Assembly (NCBI GenBank): GCA_024641705.1
Contig: JAHECO010000006.1
Span: 62,001-126,000, forward strand
Length of the DNA: 64,000 nucleotides
Reading direction: 5' to 3'
DNA from: Candidatus Kryptoniota bacterium
GTDB lineage: Bacteria > Bacteroidota > Ignavibacteria > Kryptoniales > JAKASW01
The stretch's first letter is position 1. Each line of letters opens with the position of its first letter. The notes beneath the pieces are model-generated. The model did not search any database, was not told where the DNA came from, and saw nothing but the letters and a program-made list of their open reading frames with translations. A program made the translations under genes and the position numbers. Shown in pieces: positions 53,345-55,893 of the stretch.

Positions 53345-53829
53345 GGACCGTACGTCTCGTGCACACGGGTGTTCTCGAGGGGTGCAGGCATAGAGATATA
53401 CCCGCGTTGGGCCCCTCTGCCCAGAATCATTGTTTCTTGGCGCTCAAGCTGGTGCATTCGTGGAGAATTGAGTTCTTGACAGGGTATTAACGTGCGGCGA
53501 TGCGGGAACAACGGAACTCACAGGACACAAGAGGCCCGTGTCAAAATCAGATCGGAAGACAATACTAAGGGGCTACCAAACCGAATCAATGCGCGACAGG
53601 CTCGCGCGAGGATTGCAGGATTAATAGCGCTTTCGGGGTGAACTATGATCTAACTCTTCAGCCAATTTGACGCTAAGAGAAGGAGCCTGAAAATCGCCAA
53701 AAAGCGGGAAAGAAGGCTCCATAGGGAGAATGAGGGTGGTCACTTTGCCCCCCAGTTGAATTTGTCCGTTTGATTCATGCATGTTAATTTGTTGGAAAAT
53801 TGGGACTCTGAACTGGTCATAGGTATAAC
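53345..53829. other. Gene-free left flank of the 53.8-kb island
   Basis: No gene is supported in these 485 bases. GGAGCC (53682-53687) and GGCTCC (53715-53720) form an inverted repeat with a nested CGC/GCG, and GAGGGTGGTCACTTTGCCCC follows near 53734. The last string resembles the GTGGTCACTTT repeats at ends of IS21-type elements, but no transposase is present, so this is only a hint of past insertion. Confidence 0.35.
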
Positions 53830-54516
53830 ATGAGGCTGAAAAACTACCGTTGCACCGAGTTGCAGATAACCACTGCCATGCCGTTCAGCAAGATCTCTTG
53901 GAAGAAAATGACTCAGCTCTTGCGGCTGAAGACGGGGCGTGCTGTTCGTGAGGGGGATAAAATCCAGGTAATGGTTGAGCCAAATGAGAAGGCCAGTGAT
54001 TATCACTTCCATGTATCCGCCAGACGGATTAAAGAAAGGAAAACGAGTGACGTTCTAGTTTCAGTGGAAATATATGCCAATCAGAATTTTCGAATGATCC
54101 GCAGAAGCCGAGCGATGGATAAGTCGGGCGGCCTCGATTCATGGATGCGAACTTTATCGGAAGATTGTGGTACAGCCAAAGAATTGAAGCTATCATGTCG
54201 CGCTAGGCTCAGTTATCCATCGTCGAGATTCAGTCCAGTCTTGCCGATGCCATTCAGGGGAGCGTTTGGGGTGAAGGACCAAGACGGTTTCTTTGACGGA
54301 GTGTCTATATCTGGTGTCAAAATGGAAGTCCAAAAATCGTCAGTCGGCATAGGAACGATTTATTTTGAAGTGTTTCCAGAATTCATCGGCGTAGGAATTG
54401 TGTTTTACCAAAAGACCGCGATTGGAACCGGCTTCTTCGAAAACCTGTTAGAAGATATAAACAAACTGGCGCGCATATTAGTAGTCGAAAAGGAGGGGAC
54501 ACATGCCGGGAAGTAG
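53830..54516 (+). CDS. Unknown protein, first gene of island cassette
   Basis: A 228-residue protein that I do not recognise. It is a mixed alpha/beta sequence without signal peptide or membrane helix. Early strands (YRCTELQITTAMPFSKISWK, IQVMVEPNEKASDYHFHVSA) lead to a Gly-rich core (VGIGTIYFEVFPEFIGVGIV) and a C-terminal helix (FFENLLEDINKLARILVVEK). The stop lies 14 bp inside the next gene, so the two are translated together. Codon use looks more AT-rich than the flanking lpt and aro genes, which suggests transfer. A role as a partner or target of the following two proteins is only a guess. Confidence 0.6.
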   Translation: MRLKNYRCTELQITTAMPFSKISWKKMTQLLRLKTGRAVREGDKIQVMVEPNEKASDYHFHVSARRIKERKTSDVLVSVEIYANQNFRMIRRSRAMDKSGGLDSWMRTLSEDCGTAKELKLSCRARLSYPSSRFSPVLPMPFRGAFGVKDQDGFFDGVSISGVKMEVQKSSVGIGTIYFEVFPEFIGVGIVFYQKTAIGTGFFENLLEDINKLARILVVEKEGTHAGK

Positions 54517-55033
54517 ATCGCAGCTAGAGGACGTCGACAAGGTTCACGAAGCTTTTGTGTTCTCGAGCGGCCTCGGTCAGTTTCTACAGGGAACTGGCAG
54601 GTCGGCATTTAATTGCCACATTTATCTTGAAGCTGGAGACATTGATTCATCATCTAGGCGGATACGCTTCCTTCATGGTCCAATAGACATTTTTTCAATT
54701 CTTGAGGAAACGGAGGACACGAGAGAGAAGTTTGTGGGTCTAGTCACTGATTTCTGTAATGAGCTCATCCAGGCAGAGAAGGCATCCGTGAAAGTTAGCC
54801 ATCATGCAGTTAAAATGCCACAACTCAGGGAAACCGAGATGCGGTGGCTTGAGGAGAACAAGGACACGGTTTCTAGTTATGCAGGAGAGTGGATTGCAGT
54901 CGAAGGCGCCCACCTTGTATCCCACTCACCCGATTTTGCGCAAGTGCTGCAAGCGACAAAGGAAGAGGGAATCCCAATCCCGTTTATCTTATTTGTACCA
55001 GAAGCGTCCGAGAATCCAATGATGGGTCTGTAG
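54503..55033 (+). CDS. Protein with DUF5678-like C-terminal domain
   Basis: 176 residues. The first ~110 are unassigned. Residues ~115-172 fit the small DUF5678 pattern: a helix RWLEENKDTVSSYAGEWIAV, then VEGAHLVSHSPDFAQVLQAT and a closing PIPFILFVPE. DUF5678 proteins are small, of unknown function and often sit next to retropepsin-like proteases, as happens here. ATG 54503 follows AAAAGGAGGGGAC inside the preceding gene. There is no signal peptide or membrane segment. The domain match rests on pattern recognition and is moderately sure. Confidence 0.6.
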   Translation: MPGSRSQLEDVDKVHEAFVFSSGLGQFLQGTGRSAFNCHIYLEAGDIDSSSRRIRFLHGPIDIFSILEETEDTREKFVGLVTDFCNELIQAEKASVKVSHHAVKMPQLRETEMRWLEENKDTVSSYAGEWIAVEGAHLVSHSPDFAQVLQATKEEGIPIPFILFVPEASENPMMGL

Positions 55034-55037
55034 CGGC

Positions 55038-55460
55038 TTGCATCGACTGGAATTCAAATACGGCATCAACTACAGGGGGTACGTGGGTCACGAGGGAAAC
55101 TATCCAGTTGTTACGATAAGACTAGCATCCGAGCACGGAACTGCTGATGTGCCGACAATTATTGACACTGGTACCGAATTAACGATAGTATCCGCACAGT
55201 ATGCGTTGGCACTCGGACTGGACCTGCAGTCAGGCAGGCGGAAGACTTTTTCACCGACCAGAGGTGCGGGTCTCCTGACTTGGGGACACAAACTAAGGGT
55301 CAGGATTTTCGATGAAGTATTTGAAAACGAGATCTTCTTTTCTGAGGAGGCGATTTCGCGCTGCCTCCTTGGCAGGGATATTCTTGCGAAGACTCAACTT
55401 GGTCTACGTGAATATCACGGTCAGTTGTTTCTTTTCGAGAATTCTTATAGCTCCAGCTAA
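55038..55460 (+). CDS. Retropepsin-like aspartic protease
   Basis: A 140-residue single-domain aspartyl protease. The active-site segment is VPTIIDTGTELTIVSAQYAL (Asp43-Thr-Gly) and the second family motif is SRCLLGRDILAKTQL near 109-118, the ILG-like element of retroviral-type proteases. Such proteins work as dimers. No signal peptide is seen, so it acts in the cytoplasm. The start is taken as TTG 55038, 4 bp after the DUF5678-like stop; no ATG is available before the conserved region. It closes the three-gene cassette. Its substrate is unknown, and one of the two co-encoded proteins is possible. Confidence 0.75.
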   Translation: MHRLEFKYGINYRGYVGHEGNYPVVTIRLASEHGTADVPTIIDTGTELTIVSAQYALALGLDLQSGRRKTFSPTRGAGLLTWGHKLRVRIFDEVFENEIFFSEEAISRCLLGRDILAKTQLGLREYHGQLFLFENSYSSS

Positions 55461-55893
55461 CGTGCGCTCCGCCCAGCGACATCGGAGGCTGCAAACGCGT
55501 AGGCCATTTTGATTCCCTTCCCTTGCCCTCTCGCAATAAATGAAGAGTTTCTAGTCGGCCAAGTTTATCGCATCCCCTTGCACCATTCGGCGGCGTTTAA
55601 TTATATTCAATCCAATGAAAGCGAGTGTGGACATATATATAGCCGATTACTCCTCGGGCAGAGGGACTTTGCAACCTCCCCTTCCTCATTCGCGGGCGTC
55701 TTGGGGTTCGCCCCTGGCGAACTTTTACTCCTATTTCTATTTCCCCCACCGGGGGATATGATCTTACTCTAGCCGTATATAGCTGTATTTTCCCTAGAAC
55801 TTTCAGAGACATTCAGATAGAATGTGTGAAATCTGTTTCAACAAATGGAGATTCGCGGTCCGGGGCATCGCTCCGGGGAAGGAGTTTTTTTAG
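55461..55893. other. Gene-free right flank of the island and aroF leader
   Basis: No gene is supported in these 433 bases. They contain two tight hairpins (55706-55722 and 55743-55755) and AT-rich segments such as CATATATATAGCC. TCCGGGG is repeated directly close to the aroF start (about 55859 and 55873), just before the GGAAGGAG ribosome site of aroF. Confidence 0.4.
55706..55726 (+). terminator. Intrinsic terminator after the island cassette
   Basis: GTTCGCC (55706-55712) pairs exactly with GGCGAAC (55716-55722) around CCT, and TTTT follows at once. A second CCCCC/GGGGG hairpin comes at 55743-55755. It would isolate the cassette from aroF. Confidence 0.5.

Follow-up and report, generated by a model that had tools for sequence, protein, structure and literature searches.

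Genes at the lptB-aroF junction

The window, a stretch of 64,000 nucleotides from Candidatus Kryptoniota bacterium, carries three small forward-strand genes between lptB and aroF. P1 (53830 to 54516) encodes an orphan protein of 228 amino acids. P2 (54503 to 55033) encodes a 176-amino-acid protein with an N-terminal half that is unique to this locus and a C-terminal DUF5678 domain, and P3 (55038 to 55460) encodes a predicted retropepsin-like aspartic protease of 140 amino acids. P1 and P2 overlap by 14 bp (54503 to 54516), and a gap of 4 bp (55034 to 55037) separates P2 from P3, just as an earlier note on this DNA had described. That these are chance ORFs was rejected: when the segment was shuffled 300 times by dinucleotide, the longest ATG-initiated ORF obtained was 223 amino acids, compared with 228 for P1. 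The different codon character that had been reported for the genes is also apparent, since GC3 is 0.50 to 0.53 in all three, below each of the 31 other genes in the window (0.631 +/- 0.057, minimum 0.561).

Genomes of the same genus have lptB adjoining aroF, with no P1, P2 or P3, and the genes do therefore interrupt this stretch, as had been claimed. Homology to these genomes resumes near position 55576, at the aroF promoter and leader. The segment from the lptB end to the aroF promoter (53345 to 55575, no strand assigned; ends approximate, from comparison with same-genus genomes) is thus most simply read as a compositionally foreign insertion. Mis-assembly was rejected as its source, because both flanks are syntenic with the same-genus genomes. 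A search at the locus found no repeats bounding the segment, and an Rfam search gave no match. At this junction a further genome of the genus carries an unrelated-looking gene in place of these three (L033, 3484 to 7014). That different insertion is a gene of 825 codons that contains repeats and has a C-terminal tail resembling the type IX kind, and the junction therefore tolerates insertions.

The region behind P3 had been described as gene-free and as containing a hairpin terminator for the three genes, and neither description holds. A conserved aroF promoter is present (region 55578 to 55761; TTGCAC, 18 nt, and TATATT at 55602 to 55607), followed by a conserved Phe/Tyr-rich leader ORF of 48 codons (55615 to 55761) that ends in NFYSYFYFPHRGI. 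The obvious hairpin (CCCCCACCGGGGG, about 55743 to 55755) lies within this aroF leader, not directly behind P3, and is conserved in relatives that lack the module. A pattern scan from P3 to position 55869 found no terminator-like site. The Phe/Tyr-rich ending of the leader recurs in eight same-genus genomes, which suggests that aroF is regulated via attenuation by Phe/Tyr.

Features of P1, P2 and P3

P1 matched nothing in family-profile searches, as expected from the earlier statement that it has no recognized family. Searches of 371 genomes of the class yielded chance-level matches alone, which were short stretches in unrelated frames with a best E of 0.004, and no relatives of P1 were found in genome contigs, plasmids, phages or the PDB. 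Likewise, tblastn searches against plasmids (P1, P2 and P3) and against phages (P1 and P3) gave no matches. An AlphaFold single-sequence model of P1 had a pLDDT of 34 and was unusable. P2 carries a 105-residue N-terminal extension that is unlike the P2 counterparts of all other pairs of DUF5678 and retropepsin genes described below. These comparisons mark both P1 and the N-terminal half of P2 as additions particular to this locus. The overlap of P1 with P2, their similar composition and their presence in the same insertion would fit a lineage-specific cassette of three genes, with P1 as a working third member (a substrate or an effector), but P1 is missing beside every other DUF5678-retropepsin pair and from every collection searched, and we consider such a cassette very unlikely.

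Residues 122 to 167 of P2 (54866 to 55003, forward strand) match PF18929 with 37.6 bits (E 2e-9), well above the curated cut-off of 23.2, so the DUF5678-like domain noted earlier at the end of this protein belongs to the family. The same domain is encoded 5' of retropepsins elsewhere. In the predicted model this part of P2 has a pLDDT above 90 and a helix-strand-strand-helix-strand order. Foldseek and VIA-align searches for a solved relative of the model gave weak, mixed matches, the best of which (Z 4.0) is deaminase-like.

P3 matches gag-asp_proteas (PF13975) with 28.8 bits (E 1.9e-6), a narrow margin over the cut-off of 28.2. This match and the putative catalytic motif Asp43-Thr44-Gly45 (55164 to 55172, forward strand) sustain the previous identification of P3 as a DTG aspartic protease, with its activity still a prediction. 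Asp43, Gly45 and Gly112 are invariant in an alignment of all 22 paired proteases. P3 also has the clan AA arrangement of a D-T/S-G motif and a later hydrophobic-hydrophobic-Gly motif in a single domain. Its scores for TIGR02281 and TIGR03698 were 13.9 and 17.6 bits, far below the NCBIfam cut-offs of 57.95 and 57.35. Retropepsins act as homodimers. No export-type hydrophobic segment was found in P3, in keeping with the reported lack of an export signal, and one of the 22 paired proteases (L109) is marginal in this respect. The start codon of P3 is TTG, and a TTG just after the stop codon of the partner is also found in the closest relative (L007/L111), which has 41% identity in each protein and lacks both P1 and the P2 extension.

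DUF5678-retropepsin pairs in bacteria and phages

Beyond the window, 21 more loci, in bacterial genomes and one phage, have a small DUF5678-like gene directly upstream of a retropepsin gene. A PF18929 search of 395 genomes of the phylum gave three true matches besides the window, all three directly followed by a retropepsin; a fourth match (L008) was discarded as a chance match within a long peptidase frame. When 391 genomes of the class were searched for window-type proteases, six loci were found in four other genomes, all six preceded by a DUF5678-like gene, which in two loci is weakly or not matched to DUF5678 by Pfam and was assigned by similarity and position. Several partners in other pairs exceed the PF18929 cut-off, and several fall below it; among the DUF5678 proteins, P2 is alone in its long extension. 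A search of genome contigs with protease alignment A1 gave no match, its query patterns having fallen in the N-terminus.

A broader protease profile separates the paired proteases of the phylum from other retropepsin groups, whose members are next to murC, have signal peptides or long frames, or occur alone or beside toxin-antitoxin genes. One such clade is directly behind or overlapping murC (L050-L052, L054, L056, L057, L062, L067, L068, L072), with murB next in L072 and a single open frame shared with murC in L056. Unpaired retropepsins of another clade (L079, L095, L098) have neighbors that resemble, by eye, a HEPN-type protein, a nucleotidyltransferase and a VapBC pair.

In the set of 22 pairs that includes the window and the Clostridioides difficile phage, with start codons chosen by rule, the DUF5678 gene is always first and the protease gene second, at a spacing of -26 to +11 nt (median 1.5). 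Distances among the DUF5678 proteins correlate with those among the proteases (Mantel r 0.843, reached by 0 of 20,000 permutations). The paired state also clusters on the protease tree, with 5 changes compared with 19.1 under shuffled labels; many branches are long, and a single origin is not implied. Joint action of the two proteins, with catalysis as an important part of it, is supported by their tight coupling, fixed order and co-variation and by the intact catalytic motif. Co-occurrence and co-variation leave the mode of action unspecified.

The reverse search, with a DUF5678 profile in 301 genomes of the phylum, gave 20 matches in 17 genomes. Reading of these loci revealed an adjacent intact retropepsin in 15, a broken or truncated one in four (L144, L150, L152, L156) and a different gene in one; sampling covers one phylum and viral contigs, and outside this sample DUF5678 proteins may have no protease neighbor. 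The exception (L157, 1452 to 2661) has a DUF5678 gene and then a 291-codon gene, GIY-YIG nuclease-like by eye, with no retropepsin. Another observation concerns the L085 retropepsin, which groups weakly among the paired ones on a long branch and has a different upstream gene of 79 codons with an antitoxin-like look, a possible partner exchange.

With 17 of the 301 genomes carrying it, the module is an accessory one. No third gene recurs consistently around the 16 other pairs; the sole other cluster, in 4 of 17 neighborhoods, consists of loosely linked exported proteins at varying distance and on either strand. The neighborhood survey called for by the earlier note therefore finds pairs that recur in a fixed order. 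The note's self-contained protease cassette survives as the P2-P3 pair, without P1, which does not co-occur with it; the protease has one partner (P2, with DUF5678) and not the two co-translated partners envisaged. As judged from these neighborhoods, P2 and P3 are a real, recurring, mobile two-gene module, and P1 is an orphan third gene at this locus.

The SEC-C motif is found at the end of SecA. It also occurs at the end of four paired proteases (L110, L114, L115 and L116, with a Pfam E of 5e-8 in L116) and in viral loci from L162 onward, and is possibly a targeting tail of paired retropepsins.

The pair is present in C. difficile phage phiCDIF1296T and its relatives. Pfam does not match the phiCDIF1296T partner to DUF5678, and its assignment follows from its position and a weak similarity. 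When IMG/VR was scanned with the SEC-C-bearing subclade of the paired proteases as the query, 51 loci were found. DUF5678 is immediately upstream in all 24 of the best-scoring loci (L162-L185) and in L191 and L196, making 26 contigs, of which some are possibly near-duplicates (L183 and L184). Many of the rest match the SEC-C tail alone, and the more distant viral proteases of L186-L188 have no upstream DUF5678.

The 3-kb flanks of phage-borne pairs reveal varied contexts. In L183 and L184 the pair has a minor head gene on one side and a major head gene on the other, and in L171 and L173 it is near head genes. These arrangements might reflect a phage morphogenesis protease that was captured by bacterial chromosomes. 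However, a head maturation protease would be expected at a fixed place in the head module as the sole protease, whereas the position of the pair varies: it is beside repressor/integrase genes in L162, beside terminase in L165 and L180, and before the tape measure gene in L172. In L171 and L173, moreover, a separate head maturation protease is close by. We regard a morphogenetic origin as highly improbable. DNA methyltransferase genes are another neighbor. Given the varying positions and the separate head protease, the phage-borne pair looks like cargo, not a fixed part of the virion programme.

Possible mode of action and related systems

On balance, and with moderate confidence, we favor the reading that P2-P3 represents a two-gene module, mobile and often carried by phages, whose DUF5678 protein directly controls a cytoplasmic retropepsin-like protease. 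The DUF5678 protein would be made just ahead of the protease and be translationally coupled to it, and so could bind it. It might keep the protease from acting, or bring it its substrate, until a trigger of some kind sets the protease free. DUF5678 would then be a dedicated partner, probably an inhibitor or an adaptor. The most likely purpose, as a hypothesis, is that the freed protease would harm the cell or an infecting phage in a toxin/antitoxin-like manner. Several points weigh against direct control: the DUF5678 gene with a different downstream gene (L157), the protease that groups with paired ones and has another small upstream gene (L085), the fact that no natural single-frame fusion of DUF5678 and retropepsin was seen in the loci, and the extension of P2 that its counterparts lack.

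A toxin/immunity hypothesis is compatible with the small, coupled, co-directional gene upstream, with the patchy and mobile distribution, including phages and sites beside repressor, integrase and methyltransferase genes, and with the four loci in which the protease is broken and DUF5678 persists. In the strict form of this idea, a toxin-antitoxin or abortive-infection system, the free protease would be toxic and DUF5678 would be the antitoxin that is removed by phage or stress; we treat this as a tentative possibility. That unpaired retropepsins of other clades adjoin toxin-antitoxin genes, such as VapBC in L098, is also suggestive. However, no PADLOC 2.0 defense family was matched (one weak hit, PycC, E 0.018, in P2), a Pfam search found no DNA-binding domain in the DUF5678 partner, and the asymmetry of broken proteases is partly ascertainment, because the search that revealed them started from DUF5678. 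A bolder version of the favored reading, which we find tentative and somewhat unlikely, is that DUF5678 checks the retropepsin in a phage-exchanged mobile module, and that infection or stress releases a retroviral-type protease as a bacterial or phage effector.

Searches of the open-access literature found no description of a DUF5678-retropepsin pair, in agreement with the earlier view of the module as undescribed, and nothing relevant on DUF5678 or on retropepsins with a toxin-antitoxin or anti-phage function. Through its protease partner, the pair provides the first strong link to a function for DUF5678, a domain of unknown function, and it shows that one group of bacterial retropepsins, short and apparently cytoplasmic, moves through chromosomes and phages as a two-gene unit. 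The system is small and testable. Should the partner restrain the protease, this would be a case of a naturally occurring protein that inhibits an HIV-protease-like enzyme, or else a new kind of toxin/antitoxin or anti-phage mechanism.

Type II toxin-antitoxin modules likewise consist of two small, coupled genes, with the small partner first, and are mobile and patchy; no retropepsin toxin in such modules was found in the open-access literature. The short prokaryotic clan AA proteases of COG3577 and COG5550 are single-domain proteins of about 120 residues, about which the section of PMC2642776 that treats them reports that little is known. By description, P3 is likened to them as a single-domain prokaryotic clan AA protein, and that section describes no partner gene for these COGs. 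In RloABC of Pseudomonas aeruginosa (PMC12239564), a retropepsin-like protease is likewise encoded in an operon with functionally linked genes. Unlike P2-P3, however, RloA is secreted by means of a signal peptide, and it has a membrane protein and an ATP-grasp protein as partners.

The bacterial retropepsin RimB is cytoplasmic, acts together with partners from its operon, and trims polyglutamylated RpsF (PMC11957791). This precedent, and the SEC-C motif that could target four of the paired proteases, are consistent with a dedicated processing enzyme, in which DUF5678 would serve as an adaptor or activator and the protease would trim a specific cellular target with no toxicity. We judge this unlikely, since no target gene travels with the pair, and since its presence in unrelated phages and its rarity in the phylum speak against a fixed cellular pathway. 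In place of DUF5678, RimABK has an EAL phosphodiesterase and an ATP-grasp ligase as the partners of its retropepsin; P3 matches PF13975. Neither the RimK ligase nor the RimA phosphodiesterase is found beside P3, whose neighbors are P1, lptB and aroF, and no gene family recurs beside the other pairs. Nevertheless, RimABK of Pseudomonas likewise comprises a cytoplasmic DTG retropepsin that is encoded with partner genes and controlled by a partner (PMC11957791), as would be the case for the DUF5678-retropepsin module under direct control by its partner.
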